From the NCBI GenBank assembly GCA_019913005.1, contig JAIOHL010000186.1, positions 1-57,861 of the forward strand: 57,861 bases of DNA, written 5' to 3'. Shown in pieces: positions 15,584 through 22,909 of this stretch; position 1 is the first letter of the stretch; each line of letters begins with the position of its first letter. The notes under the pieces are model-generated. The model saw nothing but the letters and a program-made list of their open reading frames with translations. It did no database searches and had not been told where the DNA came from. This stretch comes from Anaerolineae bacterium (lineage in GTDB: Bacteria > Chloroflexota > Anaerolineae > Aggregatilineales > J027). The position numbers and the translations under genes are program-made.

Positions 15584-15610
15584 AAAAAGAGCCACCTTTA
15601 GGCTCTTTTT
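15584..15610. terminator. bidirectional Rho-independent terminator
   Basis: A 10-bp perfect stem AAAAAGAGCC / GGCTCTTTTT has an A-run on one side and a T-run on the other. It serves both the VOC gene (plus) and the DUF4132-type gene (minus). The stop codon of the minus-strand gene lies inside the loop. Confidence 0.88.
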
Positions 15611-18126
15611 ATTTGTGCCAAAATTGAAGGGTCTTTGATTTTGTCGTCGGAGACCAGTAACAAAATTTTGCTGATAACTTCACTCGCTTTGGTGTCATAA
15701 CCGTCGGCGAAAGGCAAAAATAGTTTTTCATGGTTTTTGCCCCACCGATCTGGCACAATACATAGATAATTGCCCGGCTCGATATGGATAACCGCGCTAC
15801 CCAAATGCACCCGATATTTTGCTAATTTCCCTGTGATATAGGCGAAATGTCCCTCTACTGTTACCCCCGGCAATCCTAGTTCATCCAACAAAGTGGTGAT
15901 CAATTCACCCCGACGCTGATAACTTTCGGGTGATAATGCTCCTGCGTTGTCGCGTTCCCATTGCGCCACTGAGACAATCAAATCGGCATCCCGCATCACC
16001 TCCGAAAAAATCAGCGGTGGGACATTTTCAAGCGGTATCATAGATTCTTCATCATGTTGCCAATCTCGCAGCGAAGGGCGCTCGGATGACTGAAAGTAAA
16101 TACGGTCAGTCGTAATTGGTGTCTCCCCGCCAAGATAATGGTAAGCGTCTGGTAGCTCAAAGACGGCTCGCATCCCACGAAATACCTTATAAGGCACAAC
16201 CACGTCCCCGGATGTGACCCGCCACCCCCTAGTGCCAAACAACTTCCCCGCAATTCGTGCATCCAAAACATGGCCCGCAAAACGATTTGAAAAGGTATAG
16301 GTCTCTTGTTCGGCTGGGGTAAGCAGATACAATTCCCGAAACACCTGTTTAAAAGGCTGCACTATGCGGCGATGCACAATTTCGCGCTGCCAAGCCGCAA
16401 GGCTCTCGGCCTGATACAGATGATAGGGATGAGCCAACATGACTGGGACATCAATTGGAAAAAACTGGCCGTGTAAATCCCGAACTGCGAATTCGTCGGA
16501 TTCTAGCAAGCCAATCGTGCCATTCTCAAATCTCAACAAGAGCTTTCCTAGAAAAGAGCACCCTATCGAAAGACTTAGAAAGTTTTGAAGTTGATCTGGC
16601 TCAATCCATTCCCCGCTTGCCAACAAGGTTTCTAGTTCATTACGCAACCGACTGGCCTGAGCGCGAATTTGGCTAACGGCCTCCTTTACTTCGAGATATT
16701 CCACCGTTCCCCGCACCGCCAGTGGCACAGATTTTAGGGTGCGTTCCCCCTTGCGAACAACAACACTCGTATCGGCACCATCTAGATTGAGCGTTACACA
16801 ATATTCACCAATTTGCCATGTGCGCCCTGCTGGGGCAATCTCCTGACCAATTTTAGCTTCCATCGCCCATTCAAGCCGGTGAACATTCTCGTAACCAGCC
16901 ACCTGCGCCAGATTTGCCAATCCGGTCTGTGCGGCGGCGGCATGGGTAAGGCGGCGGCGCTGACCAAATTGTTTGGCACTCGCGGCGGATGTTTTCAGGG
17001 CGACGTATCGCTCCATTATTTTTTCATCACCGCGTTCCAGTGGCAGCAATCCATAAGCCTTCATAGCGATTTGGCTATCATGATTCATGCCTTTTTTAAC
17101 TTTGTCTGTGTTCAACCCGACTATAGCTTCCAATAGCGTCAACGTATTTTTGATACCAGCCCCGGATTGCCGCAAGAATTTAAAGATTTCTGCCAATCGC
17201 TGGACTGTAAAACCAGCTAACACTCCCTGCACGGCCCAAAAATCCAATAGTCCACTCGCTGGGTCAATGGAATTGGGAATATCCTGATGCCTATACCCCT
17301 CCGTTTCAAATTCCTGCTCGGCAAGTTGAAAAGCCAACTCAATCACGGGTATCGCGTCTTGCCAACCAAGTGCCTCAGCCAGCAGGATGCGGGCATGGGT
17401 GGCTACAGGGAATAAGGCCATTAGGGTTTCGCGCGGGAATTGTTTTAGGGTCTGGATCAGTTCGGTGCGTTCCGCTTCGGTTGTAGGTTCAACTGCCTCT
17501 GCCCCTGCCAAATGCCGAACCGCTTGTTCGGGCGTAGCCCAGCCATAAACGTCCGTAAGTTTACCTAGTTGATATTCCAAATGATATTGTGCGGCTAGGA
17601 GCAAATAGCGACTCCCATAGAGATGTGCAATACCTATCAATCTTTGTTGTTTGTCCGTAGTCGAAATATCTTGTGCCCATTCCCATCCCAGTCGGTCAGC
17701 ATATTGGAGGAATCTGGCGCGATATTCTGGCAAAATCACATTTCTTGTTGAATGATGGAATATTTGAAAACCAATATTGTATTGATCGCGCCTTATATCT
17801 AGTGCAACTAGGATATGCGGCATCTGGTCAATCGCCGCGCAAAAAAGTTCATAGGTCAATCGTCCATGCTGTTCCAAATAATTCAATAGCTGAATCCAGC
17901 GACCAACATCGTAAAATGATGGTTGACTGGCAGAGAAATAAACCTTGCCGGGTGGATTCAATTCACCTTTGATAAAACGAGTGATCAAATCCAGTTGTTC
18001 AGTGGAACTGGGCAAAGCCAGCAATGATTCAAGGCATTCTGCGACATGGGAATAAATCCGGCGTGTATCCTTCTGTCCCTCTACTAATCCTTTTTGAAGG
18101 CACTTTTCAATATCAGCTAGAAACAT
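15598..18126 (-). CDS. DUF4132/DUF5724-type protein with C-terminal DUF7737-like domain
   Basis: Large (842 residues) protein of unknown function. The last third carries the highly conserved block I associate with the DUF4132 (MolR-related) and DUF7737 families: AWQREIVHRRIVQPFKQVFR, LYLLTPAEQ, SNRFAGHVL, VPPLIFSEVMRDADLIVSVA, then LGSAVIHIEPGNYLCIVPD and DDKIKDPSILAQI at the very end. The N-terminal half is helical and without recognisable motifs. Some family members are considerably longer, so this may be a shorter version. No signal peptide or membrane segment is seen, so it is cytosolic. It starts 3 bases after the stop of the 149-residue gene, whose last codons contain its GGAGGT ribosome binding site, so the two are tightly coupled. 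Confidence 0.7.
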   Translation of the reverse strand: MFLADIEKCLQKGLVEGQKDTRRIYSHVAECLESLLALPSSTEQLDLITRFIKGELNPPGKVYFSASQPSFYDVGRWIQLLNYLEQHGRLTYELFCAAIDQMPHILVALDIRRDQYNIGFQIFHHSTRNVILPEYRARFLQYADRLGWEWAQDISTTDKQQRLIGIAHLYGSRYLLLAAQYHLEYQLGKLTDVYGWATPEQAVRHLAGAEAVEPTTEAERTELIQTLKQFPRETLMALFPVATHARILLAEALGWQDAIPVIELAFQLAEQEFETEGYRHQDIPNSIDPASGLLDFWAVQGVLAGFTVQRLAEIFKFLRQSGAGIKNTLTLLEAIVGLNTDKVKKGMNHDSQIAMKAYGLLPLERGDEKIMERYVALKTSAASAKQFGQRRRLTHAAAAQTGLANLAQVAGYENVHRLEWAMEAKIGQEIAPAGRTWQIGEYCVTLNLDGADTSVVVRKGERTLKSVPLAVRGTVEYLEVKEAVSQIRAQASRLRNELETLLASGEWIEPDQLQNFLSLSIGCSFLGKLLLRFENGTIGLLESDEFAVRDLHGQFFPIDVPVMLAHPYHLYQAESLAAWQREIVHRRIVQPFKQVFRELYLLTPAEQETYTFSNRFAGHVLDARIAGKLFGTRGWRVTSGDVVVPYKVFRGMRAVFELPDAYHYLGGETPITTDRIYFQSSERPSLRDWQHDEESMIPLENVPPLIFSEVMRDADLIVSVAQWERDNAGALSPESYQRRGELITTLLDELGLPGVTVEGHFAYITGKLAKYRVHLGSAVIHIEPGNYLCIVPDRWGKNHEKLFLPFADGYDTKASEVISKILLLVSDDKIKDPSILAQIKRA

Positions 18127-18129
18127 AAT

Positions 18130-18579
18130 TCAACCTCCGCGTAGGGGAGTCAAACGCAAAAAGGTAATTTTGCTGGTTGGCTCAAGTTTCAATACCTCAT
18201 CCAACCTCTCAACTTGGCGTCTATCTAACACAATCATATAAGTTTGATTTTCAAAAGCGCTGATTGCCTTAGCGACTTCAGCCGCTAGATCAAGCTCCGG
18301 AAGTTCAGCGATTTTGTTAGAGGGATAACGAATTGCGCCTGTTTGGGCTTGCTGTCGAACTTGTGCATCGGTCAGATAATGCCTATCGAAAGTCTGCCTT
18401 GCCTGCTCGACATCTAATTTGTGATGCAGAATCAGATCACGGATTTGTTCTTCCACACCACGCTGAATCAGTTCTGCCGTAGTGATTTCTTCGTTTAACA
18501 ACTCCAACACCACATCCGGCAACTGCGCCTCGTTAGATCGCCCCCCTATAACCCGATGTCGAATCTCTACACTCAACAT
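18130..18579 (-). CDS. 149-aa protein with a C-terminal Gly-Gly tail, candidate beta-grasp (ubiquitin/MoaD-like) partner of the DUF4132 protein
   Basis: Not a recognised named family. The protein opens with a predicted strand (LSVEIRHRVIG) and a strand-helix segment (EEITTAELIQRGVEEQI), then an Arg/Gln-rich helical insertion (about 50-105). It closes with YMIVLDRRQVERLDEV and KITFLRLTPLRGG, ending exactly at Gly148-Gly149. Strand, short helix, strand and a PLxGG end at the extreme C-terminus resemble ThiS/MoaD and ubiquitin-like beta-grasp proteins, whose terminal Gly-Gly is activated by E1-type enzymes. This is inferred from pattern only. One caution: the Gly codons GGA GGT also form the ribosome binding site of the next gene, so they could be kept for that reason. 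No E1, JAB protease or E2 is in the window. Confidence 0.6.
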   Translation of the reverse strand: MLSVEIRHRVIGGRSNEAQLPDVVLELLNEEITTAELIQRGVEEQIRDLILHHKLDVEQARQTFDRHYLTDAQVRQQAQTGAIRYPSNKIAELPELDLAAEVAKAISAFENQTYMIVLDRRQVERLDEVLKLEPTSKITFLRLTPLRGG

Positions 18580-18704: not shown

Positions 18705-20315
18705 TTACAATGGGATATTGCCGTGTTTTTTCATCGGGTTGGTATCGCGTTTATTGGAGAGCATTTCCAGCGCATTGATGACACGGGGGCGCGTCTCGCT
18801 CGGCATAATCACATCATCAATAAACCCGCGTGCCGCCGCCACATAGGGATTGGCAAATTTCTCGCGGTATTCATTGACCAAGCGCGTCTTGACCGCCTGC
18901 ATCTCTTCTTCACCACCCCGTTCCATCGCTTCCTGCAATTCGCGCCGGAAGATAATATTGACCGCGCCATCCGGCCCCATCACCGCGATTTCGGCTGTCG
19001 GCCACGCTAGATTCAAATCCCCACGAATATGTTTGGACGACATCACACAGTACGCCCCACCATAGGCTTTGCGGGTGACAATGGTAATTTTGGGCACAGT
19101 CGCTTCGCAGTAGGCATACAACAGCTTCGCCCCAGAACGTATAATCCCGCCATATTCCTGTTTCGTACCGGGCATAAAACCGGGCACATCTTCCAGCGTC
19201 AAAATCGGAATATTGAAGCAGTCACAGAATCGGATAAACCGAGCCGCTTTTTCACTGGCGTCAATATCCAACACCCCGGCCAATACTGCTGGCTGATTAG
19301 CGATAATCCCAATGCTGTGCCCACCCATCCGCGCAAACCCGACCACAATATTAGCGGCGAAATGGGGCTGAATCTCAAAAAATCGTGCGTCGTCCACCAA
19401 ATAATGAATCACTTCTTTGATGTCATACGGCTTATTGGGGTTATCTGGCACAATCGTATCGAGAGCCTCCTCTGTGCGCAGCGGGTCATCTTTCGAGGGT
19501 TGGAACTGCGGGTCTTCCATATTATTCTGCGGTAGATAACTCAATAATTCCTGCACCAAAAACAGGGCGTCGTCTTCATTTTCTGCCACCAAATGCGCCA
19601 CACCGGAAACACTGGCATGAGTATTCGCCCCACCTAGTTCCTCTTTGGTGACATCCTCTTTGGTGACGGCCTTGACTACATCCGGCCCGGTCACGAACAT
19701 ATACGAAGTGTTTTTGACCATGATAATGAAGTCGGTTAGGGCCGGGCTATAGACCGCCCCACCCGCACATGGCCCCATAATGACACTAATCTGAGGAATG
19801 ACCCCGCTTGCCATCGTATTACGCAGAAAAATATCCGCATACCCGCCGAGGCTTATCACGCCTTCTTGGATACGTGCCCCACCGGAATCGTTCAGGCCGA
19901 TCACTGGCGCACCCGTTTTCATTGCCATATCCATCATCTTGCAGATTTTTTCGGCATGGACTTCGCTGAGACTGCCACCCATCACCGTAAAATCCTGCGA
20001 AAACACATATACCAATCGTCCGTTGACTGTACCCCAGCCCGTCACCACACTATCCCCCACAAATTCTTTATCGGGTTCATCCATGCCAAAATTACGTTCG
20101 CGGTGAATCACAAACGGGTCAAGTTCACGGAAAGAACCGGGGTCAAGCAGCATCTCCAGCCGTTCGCGGGCGGTTAATTTTCCACCTTCGTACTGTGCAT
20201 CAATGCGTTTTTTGCCCCCACCCTGCAAACTACGGGCACGCATAATACTAAGCGTATCCAATAACTCATTTCCCGAATTTTCAGCGATCATAGGAGGCTT
20301 AGTCGTATTCGTCAT
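18705..20315 (-). CDS. acyl-CoA carboxylase carboxyltransferase (beta) subunit, propionyl-CoA type
   Basis: 536 residues, standard length for PccB/methylmalonyl-CoA carboxyltransferase 12S-type subunits. It transfers a carboxyl group from carboxybiotin to an acyl-CoA such as propionyl-CoA. Both crotonase-fold halves show the oxyanion-hole motifs: [12 protein letters not shown] and [13 protein letters not shown] in the first, and [19 protein letters not shown] with [11 protein letters not shown] in the second. The C-terminus KKHGNIPL is typical. No biotin carboxylase or biotin carrier gene is in the window, so the partner subunits are elsewhere. The start overlaps the stop of the preceding small membrane protein gene by four bases, indicating translational coupling in a TPR - membrane protein - carboxyltransferase operon. 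Confidence 0.92.
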
Positions 20316-20758: not shown

Positions 20759-22909
20759 TTAAATCAGGAGTGCAAGTTCATTCGCTGTTGGATCCCCCAA
20801 CCGTTTATAAAGGCGATGGGCCTCCTCATAGTGGCTTCTGGCCTCCTCCTGTTCTTCCTTGCGTGTATAAACATCAGCCAGCACCCGCACCGCTTCGGCC
20901 TGTCCCCGCCGAAACCCCATCTTTTTGCTGCTGGATTCCGATTCCTTAGCAAGGCTCTCAGCCTCATCCAATAGCCCTTGTTTCATCATCAAGGCAGCAC
21001 GGCGAATTTGTGTCCGTACTATATTTTCCGGGTCTTGAACAGCCTGGCTTTCAGCAAGGGCCTGATTCAACAATTCCTCCGCATGGACTAAATCATCTTG
21101 GGCCAAATACAGGGCGGCCCAATTACTTTTAATGACAGCCTGCCAGCGGGGGGAATGAGCGGTTTCGACTGTCCCCAGTGCCTGTTTAAAGAGTGTGCTG
21201 GCCGTCCCGCGATCATGTTTGACAAAATAGGCCCACGCCAGATTATTCGTCTGGATAGCGATCAGCAGCGGATCATTGATTTCACGGCTGATTTGTAGGG
21301 CTTTTTCAAGGGTTTCAATCGCCACTGGAACTTTCCCCGACAGCACATAAAACCATCCCAAATTGCCCAATCGCAACCCCTCGGCTTGCCGATCCCGCCG
21401 ATCTCGTGCAATCTGGATAGATTCTTCATAAAAGGATCGGGCCGTTTCCAAATCGCCCAAATCGGTATAGAGATTGGCGGCATTGGAGAGCACCAACCCC
21501 CGTGTCACTCGGTCATCTACATTACTCAACAACTTCTGGGCATTTTCAAAATCAGTCAACGCTCCATTAAATTCACCATTCATCCGGCGCACATTGCCAA
21601 TATCGCACAACACTCGCGCCGCGCTTGCAAACTCTCCCGCATTTTCGAACAGCGCCAATGCCTCTTGATACGTCTTCAGCGCGACCTCCCGTTCTAGGTG
21701 GGAGGTGTAAACCGATGCCAACAACTGCAAGGCCTCGGCCCGTTTCACTGGATTTTTTTCGCTGTCGGTCTGGGTCAACACCGTTTGGAAAGTGGCGATT
21801 GCCTCTTCAATTGCCCCACTACGTTGCTGGGCACGCCCCAATGCCAACAGCAGGCCTGCTTTTTCAGTCGTATCCGATAAAACCCCGTCCTCAAAATAGC
21901 GCAGTCCCTCTTGCAGTTTGACGGCAGCCTCTTCATTACGTTTTAAACCTTGCAAGGCCAGTCCCTGTCGGCCCACCGCCAAAGCCGCACTTTTGGCATC
22001 ATGTAGTTCATTGGCATGAAGATGAGCACGTTCAGCCTGCGTCAAGGCTTGAGTGTAGTCCCCCAAGCGTTGATAGACCTGCCCCAGACTGAGCGCCAGT
22101 TGTAAGAAAAATTCAGGCTGCTGTTGTCCGGTGCGCCGTGCCAATTCTTCAGCTTTTTCATAGCGCTGCATCGCATCCAGATAGTGACCCTCTTGGATGT
22201 CAGCACCTGCCAAATCCATCATCCAACGCAGCACCAAACGATTCCGGCCCGTTTGATAGCTCATGTGCAGGCCTTGTTCGAGCCATTTTCGCCCACCTGC
22301 CCGATCTCCCATCGCCAACATCGCCTCACCCAACCGCCCCGACACACCTGCCACCAAAACTGGACTTTGTGCCTTTTGTGCGATCTGAAAAGCCTCTCTC
22401 AGCAAGTGCGTCGCATACGAGGGGTTGCTCTGTTCGATATAATCCCGTGCTAAGTTTTCCAGAGCCAAGACAATCGTGGCAGCATCCCCAGTTGGTCGGG
22501 CCACATCCAGTGCTTGTTGATGATAGGTTTGCGCCTGTGCCCAATCCTTTTGAGCAGCATATAACTCACCGAGGTTGCTCAAACTTCGGGCAATCAACAC
22601 CGACTGATGCTGTTTACGCGCCGCCTCAAGAGCCTCCCGTAAAAACTGTTCGCCTTGTTCATATTGGCGTGACTGCACCAATAATGCCCCAATACCACTC
22701 AGGAAAAACTGCTCGGCCCGCGCATCGTTATATTGTCGAGCCAGTGCCAATCCTTGTTGATAATATTGCATTGCCTGTTCAGTTGCGCCCTGTTCTTGGG
22801 CCGTTGTTCCGGCTTCTGAAAGGCGGTTCATTTCTTGCTCATGGGGATGAAAATAGGGCTGCGGCTTTTGTTCGGGCCGCCCCCGAAAGCGCGAAGTAAA
22901 TTTTTGCAT
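20759..22909 (-). CDS. tetratricopeptide-repeat protein
   Basis: A 716-residue soluble protein made almost entirely of TPR units from about residue 25 to the end. Repeats of the 34-40-residue pattern recur throughout, for example AMQYYQQGLALARQYND, ARSLSNLGELYAAQKDWAQA, ALTDFENAQKLLSN, ARSFYEESIQIARDRRD and ARSHYEEAHRLYKRLGDP. The spacing is of the TPR_12/GPSM2-like (about 40 residue) type. There is no signal peptide, transmembrane helix, kinase or DNA-binding domain. It probably serves as a protein-interaction scaffold. It is first in the minus-strand operon with the small membrane protein and acyl-CoA carboxyltransferase; a role with either is possible but not shown. Confidence 0.88.
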   Translation of the reverse strand: MQKFTSRFRGRPEQKPQPYFHPHEQEMNRLSEAGTTAQEQGATEQAMQYYQQGLALARQYNDARAEQFFLSGIGALLVQSRQYEQGEQFLREALEAARKQHQSVLIARSLSNLGELYAAQKDWAQAQTYHQQALDVARPTGDAATIVLALENLARDYIEQSNPSYATHLLREAFQIAQKAQSPVLVAGVSGRLGEAMLAMGDRAGGRKWLEQGLHMSYQTGRNRLVLRWMMDLAGADIQEGHYLDAMQRYEKAEELARRTGQQQPEFFLQLALSLGQVYQRLGDYTQALTQAERAHLHANELHDAKSAALAVGRQGLALQGLKRNEEAAVKLQEGLRYFEDGVLSDTTEKAGLLLALGRAQQRSGAIEEAIATFQTVLTQTDSEKNPVKRAEALQLLASVYTSHLEREVALKTYQEALALFENAGEFASAARVLCDIGNVRRMNGEFNGALTDFENAQKLLSNVDDRVTRGLVLSNAANLYTDLGDLETARSFYEESIQIARDRRDRQAEGLRLGNLGWFYVLSGKVPVAIETLEKALQISREINDPLLIAIQTNNLAWAYFVKHDRGTASTLFKQALGTVETAHSPRWQAVIKSNWAALYLAQDDLVHAEELLNQALAESQAVQDPENIVRTQIRRAALMMKQGLLDEAESLAKESESSSKKMGFRRGQAEAVRVLADVYTRKEEQEEARSHYEEAHRLYKRLGDPTANELALLI

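Follow-up and report, generated by a model that had tools for sequence, protein, structure and literature searches.

Is the Gly-Gly end of a small protein encoded directly ahead of a DUF4132 gene functional, or is it only the imprint of the next gene's ribosome binding site? The question is raised by a gene pair on contig JAIOHL010000186.1 of an Anaerolineae bacterium (Chloroflexota, assembly GCA_019913005.1), the 57,861 nucleotides of which are referred to as the window. The first gene encodes 149 residues with the C-terminus ITFLRLTPLRGG, followed by TGA. The second begins 3 bases further on and encodes a partner of 842 residues whose Pfam matches are domains of unknown function (DUFs) only, namely DUF4132 (E 1.4e-33), DUF7737 (E 6.9e-32) and the end of DUF5724 (E 1.3e-13). 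An earlier note on this DNA had proposed a conjugation or sulfur-carrier-like pair, and the exact Gly-Gly end and the 3-base spacing that it described were confirmed in the window DNA. The comparisons presented here show that the two glycines are kept for the protein, and suggest that they tend to be kept together with one cysteine of the partner at which the tail probably reacts.

The terminal glycines are kept for the protein

In the window the glycine codons GGA GGT make up the GGAGG ribosome site of the partner gene, and the earlier note had cautioned that this alone could conserve the two residues. In an alignment of 58 rows, of which those from outside the window's genus are 22-48% identical to the window protein, residues F140, R142, L143, P145, L146, G148 and G149 were invariant, the rows having been found by a pattern that itself contains GG. 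A tail-blind profile, cut short by its last three residues, found 36 places, 27 of them usable; left out were centre genomes chosen for GG (L166, L175, L185, L189 and L199), a fragment with internal stops (L180) and weak hits that stop short of the tail (L186-L188). Twenty-two of the 27 relatives ended exactly in GG, the first glycine codon being GGC or GGT in eight of these, and the remaining five, all from the Bacteroidota search, ended in G-x-Y-W.

Codon usage was compared in 106 non-redundant small-protein genes (102 with GG and four without), 80 of the loci searched having been chosen by the GG pattern. Codons spelling GGAGG were found in 34 of the 63 GG genes with a possible partner start within 20 nucleotides and in 8 of the 39 others (Fisher p 9e-4), and GGC or GGT came first in 18 of the 63 and 27 of the 39, the latter group being mixed in that some of its partner frames are cut or broken and may have a true start nearby (L021, L054 and L109, judged by their flanks) and that eight have no partner frame in view. 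The clear cases without overlap were 12 genes with the first possible partner start 21-60 nucleotides away and five with the partner upstream. All 17 of these ended in GG and 16 used GGC or GGT first; nearly all come from the GG-pattern set, L059 (partner upstream) being outside it.

The ribosome site thus shapes the glycine codons, and the residues themselves are kept at the protein level, since GG persists with codons that make no Shine-Dalgarno sequence, with reversed gene order and in relatives found without regard to the tail. The caution of the earlier note therefore holds for the codons and fails as the sole cause of conservation: the enrichment of GGAGG at near partner starts is what an artefact would produce, but the genes without overlap and the tail-blind counts rule it out as the only cause, and we regard a Gly-Gly kept merely because GGAGG serves the next gene as hardly tenable.

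The note had also expected a Gly-Gly that stays invariant with nothing after it, which agrees with the 22 tail-blind relatives and not with all members of the family. Some relatives carry short extensions (GGA, GGAP, GGAV, GGSA, GGCR and GGW), and one clade of Bacteroidota lacks the second glycine, lost while the partner was retained; in Bacteroides finegoldii the small protein ends in SGRLW beside an intact DUF5724/DUF4132/DUF7737 gene. In one locus (L068:5086-8643) small protein and partner lie in one reading frame with GD at the joint instead of GG, a fusion whose letters nearly match the usual layout and which may stem from a sequencing error.

The Gly-Gly end and a partner cysteine tend to be kept or lost together

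An alignment of 50 partner sequences contained many invariant polar residues and an invariant cysteine, Cys789. Across 101 non-redundant pairs, this cysteine was present beside 92 of 93 GG-type tails (87 of 88 ending exactly in GG, and 5 of 5 that run one or two residues further) and in the single fusion, and was absent from all seven Trp-tailed pairs, where it was replaced by Ser (four), Ala (two) or Asn (one). The association had a Fisher p of 5e-10 with relatedness ignored, and among 406 partner columns tested only 789 separated the GG and Trp classes without overlap. In a Chloroflexota pair with the tail GGW (L011), column 789 was the only one changed among 29 near-invariant partner columns. 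The Trp-tailed partners of Bacteroidota differed at 789 and W579, with one more change in some (L824 or I835); W579 also varies in Deinococcus members with GG. The Trp label required two changes on the trees, and the Trp-tailed rows were joined in 0 of 200 bootstrap trees, so that these pairs probably represent two lineages, although a single origin was not rejected by the approximately unbiased (AU) test.

Because the free GG end and Cys789 tend to be kept or lost together, the two proteins are suggested to meet at an active site. From this pattern we infer that the tail of the small protein reaches, and probably reacts at, Cys789.

Other partner copies were also inspected. Tandem DUF4132-type copies stand beside one small protein in two loci (L094:8403-13580 and L135:2076-7926). 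A third copy in genome G586 has neither GG nor the cysteine, but looks decayed. A DUF4132 protein of Acetobacter has Phe at the 789 position and no small partner appears in its locus, and those of Burkholderia have Ala there, albeit in a poorly aligned region, with an upstream gene that by eye is unlike the small protein.

At partner column 491 (window numbering), Tyr, Trp or His was found in Trp-tailed pairs and mostly Leu or Ala in GG pairs; the column is possibly part of a pocket that takes the Trp. A pocket of this kind would suit a mechanism in which the small protein is a non-covalent regulatory subunit, its tail docking in a C789-lined pocket with no glycine chemistry and the Trp tail fitting a remodelled version in some lineages. 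The persistence of Trp-tailed pairs with Ala, Ser or Asn at 789, the residues at column 491 and the one-frame fusion, if genuine, all fit such docking. A near-invariant cysteine and a terminal Gly-Gly would nevertheless exceed the usual needs of packing in a protein otherwise so diverged, and we consider docking without chemistry rather unlikely.

The small protein and its partner co-occur across many phyla

As judged from the loci compared, the small protein belongs to an unannotated family that has the same partner in Chloroflexota, Deinococcota, Cyanobacteriota, Planctomycetota, Actinomycetota, Pseudomonadota, Bacteroidota and others. Its distribution was patchy inside every group searched. 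The profile matched 9 of 298 genomes of the window's class (one weakly) and 22 of 400 of its phylum; with the centre genome counted each time, matches were present in 8 of 296 genomes of the phylum to which a Saprospiraceae centre belongs. For the phyla around a cyanobacterium, a Streptomyces and a planctomycete the counts were 5 of 194, 8 of 217 (three weak and discounted) and 10 of 216, and in the order around a Pseudomonas 3 of 145 genomes had a match. Viral contigs yielded no relatives of the small protein and no match to a pattern for the Bacteroides partner, and phage records gave no DUF4132 match.

The earlier note had held that the two genes are coupled and not obviously tied to E1, E2 or JAB genes. 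A scan of public genomes with a pattern that includes GG gave 175 matching stretches, from which 112 relatives and finally 80 loci were kept. A DUF4132-type frame was present in 73 of the 80 by our own profile and in 76 by similarity clustering. The first part of the claim was further supported at the genome level: DUF7737 occurred in 50 of the 57 genomes that have the small protein (every accepted match, leaving aside centre genomes and the weak matches G054, G1246, G1270 and G1303) and in 1 of 103 without it (0 of 23 plus 1 of 80), the latter being the first listed in the searches and not a random draw. The single DUF7737 without a small protein is close to the start of its contig and has the cysteine. 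For the second part, frame clustering found no third gene family in more than 8 of the 80 loci, a result that agrees with the claim within its scope, as E1, E2 and JAB models were not run directly and rare or unlinked genes of these kinds are possible. The two most frequent third families were, by eye, a sensor-kinase-like protein and an ABC transporter.

In seven genomes a relative was present and DUF7737 absent. The tails were FMRLYQR (five genomes of one genus), VGD (G541) and AGG (G1469), so that GG was missing in six of the seven. The relatives in the five genomes of one genus (L040-L044 and L067:8682-9146) are diverged and without a DUF7737 match; the one in L067 (genome G377), the sole context read for that genus, adjoins a gene that by eye is RecF-like.

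The small protein is predicted to adopt a beta-grasp fold

Structure prediction from the 58-row alignment gave a model with a mean pLDDT of 76 and a pTM of 0.66, with a loose tail and with strands and helices arranged as b-b-a-(helical insert)-a-b-b-b. The best Foldseek matches were MoaD proteins (E 0.05), with a probability of 0.97 for 5mpo_B. A second structural aligner matched this human MoaD-type protein with Z 9.4 over 80 of 84 residues at a root-mean-square deviation of 2.8, and ubiquitins with Z about 8. The model and its neighbours agree with the beta-grasp fold with a helical insertion that the earlier note had read from the sequence, and with moderate confidence we assign the small protein to this fold, at fold level, with MoaD and ubiquitin as its nearest neighbours.

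The window protein had no Pfam match even at E 10, and the Deinococcus and Bacteroides members had none at E 0.1. Six members were searched at E 10, where DUF3509 was touched by one (E 0.0026), DUF1572 by another (E 0.039) and a MoaD/ThiS model by none; a distant kinship with MoaD/ThiS is possible all the same. Sequence searches of the PDB gave no convincing match for the small protein or for the partner, the latter searched as a profile.

With MoaD and ThiS among the nearest folds, the pair could be a sulfur carrier and its user: a housekeeping E1-like enzyme (MoeB or ThiF) would convert the terminal glycine to a thiocarboxylate, whose sulfur the DUF4132/DUF7737 protein would use as MoaE does with MoaD. 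The two-protein layout resembles MoaD/MoaE, tails such as PLVGG and PLAGG resemble those of MoaD/ThiS, and the partner cysteine could accept or relay sulfur. Trp tails, in contrast, cannot carry sulfur in this way, and no sulfur-metabolism family recurs beside the pair in the 80 clustered loci. PMC8533742 names moeB in D. radiodurans, but in the passages used here moeA and moeB are not co-regulated with the pair. On balance a sulfur carrier appears unlikely.

A Deinococcus member suggests a link to stress

In a D. radiodurans record, a gene of 134 residues ending in LTALAGG (L153:2270-2674) is followed by a DUF4132 gene and has a thioredoxin gene upstream. It is taken as DR_A0165, also called SEP068184, by name and layout and not by comparison with the published sequence; DR_A0165 is counted as a family member because the order DR_A0164-DR_A0165-DR_A0166 matches this record. 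According to the passages of PMC9650054 used here, the peptide search covered 8-100 residues, while the gene in the record encodes 134. They report that SEP068184 rose after radiation and H2O2, that its deletion increased survival of H2O2, that it bound thioredoxin in pull-downs, that its model resembles MoaD and SAMP1 and that it is present only in Deinococcus. The word ubiquitin was not met in the main text, and in the passages used here the downstream gene appears as a neighbour only.

The same source reports 157 proteins co-purifying with SEP068184. This breadth, together with the GG tail, the beta-grasp fold and the short extensions after GG in some members, would be expected of a general modifier, ubiquitin- or SAMP-like, which housekeeping enzymes would attach to many targets and for which the partner would serve as a ligase or regulator. 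Against this, the 157 proteins were recovered from C-terminal as well as N-terminal tags (PMC9650054), no E1/E2/JAB-like family recurs beside the pair by clustering, and GG is absent from six of the seven genomes in which a relative occurs without DUF7737, an absence that connects the tail with the partner and not with general machinery. A general modifier is thus improbable.

As described in the parts of PMC8533742 consulted, drA0165-drA0166 are placed under DdrO, and the DRA0166 protein is induced by mitomycin C in an IrrE-dependent manner. The RDRM operator printed there was present in the record (L153:1714-2674), 63-82 bases before the small gene, in conflict with PMC9650054, which in its consulted passages reports none. 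Across the family, SOS/LexA-type sites were not clearly enriched: CTG-N10-CAG occurred in 4 of 102 upstream stretches (0.039) and at 0.047 in background windows, and CTGT-N8-ACAG and GAAC-N4-GTTC each occurred in 1 of 102 (background 0.002), in a scan that is weak, as its RDRM pattern had no hit in the 102 stretches and thus overlooked even the Deinococcus site. A role in the stress response is suggested by the Deinococcus member only.

A thioester at Cys789 is the tentatively favoured mechanism

Taken together, these data lead us to favour, at somewhat less than even confidence, a two-protein enzyme system in which a MoaD/ubiquitin-like carrier engages Cys789 of its partner, most likely through an intermediate that is a thioester or another acyl-sulfur species. 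The flexible tail of the carrier, with a free glycine carboxylate at its end, would enter the active site of the DUF4132/DUF7737 protein and meet the conserved cysteine there. The partner would then charge, modify or transfer the carrier with no adjacent E1, E2 or JAB gene. The fold model, the pairing, the conservation of Gly-Gly at the protein level and its joint absence with the cysteine are results of the comparisons; physical contact, covalent bond, activation step and purpose are all things that we infer here.

Several observations weigh against this reading. Trp-tailed pairs persist, and their function therefore cannot require tail-cysteine chemistry; simple packing against the tail could account for the cysteine. 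No ATP-binding site came to light in the partner, whose profile found no convincing counterpart in the PDB. The joint loss rests on two tree changes, with a p of 0.105 for a single origin in the AU test. In L135, GG stands beside a partner copy with Leu at 789, two further copies there keeping the cysteine; near the Cys-bearing partner genes of L244 and L245 no small protein was detected within 4.5 and 5.5 kb, the genomes holding other copies; and the AGG-ending relative of G1469 has no DUF7737 in its genome. As to the fold, the Foldseek E of the best matches is only 0.05, and by the aligner's own note a best Z of 7 to 8 is common for models without a clear match. As for the earlier note, its reading is borne out in part, in fold, pairing and selection on Gly-Gly, with conjugation or sulfur carriage as a proposal, and the tail exceptions run against the strict end that it had made decisive.

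It is possible, though doubtful, that DUF4132/DUF7737 proteins form a new enzyme class that needs no helper to activate or charge its own ubiquitin-like protein, using an invariant cysteine. An E1/E2-like function would then reside in a protein unrelated to those enzymes, and the class would be widespread in bacteria and, in at least one genus, respond to DNA damage or oxidative stress by induction. In any case an unannotated ubiquitin-like family is now joined to a large, widespread domain of unknown function, with a residue-level reason, the glycine end and cysteine kept or lost as one, to think that both meet at an active site. The covariation points to ubiquitin-like chemistry of a possibly new kind, open to laboratory tests at one cysteine and two glycines.

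Features and surroundings of the window pair

Table 1. Coordinates of the gene pair and its parts in the window.
Feature	Position	Strand
Ubiquitin-like (beta-grasp, predicted) protein of 149 residues, no Pfam family, ends TPLRGG	18130..18579	-
C-terminal Gly-Gly codons GGA GGT, doubling as GGAGG ribosome site of the partner gene	18133..18138	-
DUF4132/DUF7737 partner of 842 residues	15598..18126	-
Partner DUF4132 domain, residues 462-635; invariant R597, E598, Y600, R615, W635	16222..16743	-
Partner DUF7737 domain, residues 737-839	15610..15918	-
Partner Cys789 codon, motif E-P-G-N-Y-L-C-I-V-P; covaries with the small protein's last glycine	15760..15762	-

The window genome holds a second pair on another contig (L009/L010), with the tail MFIRLVPLVGG and a partner of 1,627 residues. 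Upstream of the window pair lie genes for a carboxyl transferase of the acyl-CoA carboxylase type (PF01039) and a large tetratricopeptide repeat (TPR) protein, at 18705-20315 and 20759-22909, both on the minus strand; these accompany the pair in 3 of the 80 clustered loci only, all close relatives of the window. A scan for promoters and terminators around the pair gave no sites in excess of shuffles, and defence-system models had no match at E 0.01 to the two window proteins or the two Deinococcus proteins.

Relation to known systems

MoaD and ThiS are small beta-grasp proteins with a C-terminal Gly-Gly that work with a larger partner. The window protein is like MoaD/MoaE and ThiS in fold and in its Gly-Gly, and MoaD is its best structural match. 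It differs in its long helical insertion and in having no Pfam match, and the linked partner is a DUF4132/DUF7737 protein, not MoaE, with no cofactor gene family recurring beside the pair. Proteins of the MolR/YehI type in E. coli share DUF4132 (E. coli matches PF13569), whereas DUF7737 was matched in 0 of 14 control genomes, E. coli among them; we know of no ubiquitin-like partner for DUF4132 proteins of this type.

The bacterial ubiquitin/E1/E2/JAB operons (Iyer, Burroughs and Aravind 2006, PMC1779556), as far as the passages used here describe them, have in common with the present pair the fold, the GG end, short extensions and a conserved partner cysteine. Here, in contrast, clustering found no E1, E2 or JAB among the recurrent neighbours, which were not searched with profiles. 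In that paper no mention of MolR, and one of a DUF, was found. In open-licence full text three papers name DUF4132 and none was found to combine it with ubiquitin-like, though an earlier mention in comparative genomics is possible; among the papers listed for DUF5724, DUF7737 or the Deinococcus gene tags, those other than PMC9650054 and PMC8533742 looked unrelated by title, and nothing on the pair was found in the literature on bacterial ubiquitin-like proteins as judged by titles and abstract openings.

DR_A0165, as presented in the consulted text of PMC9650054, shares with the family both the layout before a DUF4132 gene and a MoaD/SAMP1-like model. A stress peptide reported from Deinococcus alone may in this way become a model for a system found in many phyla.

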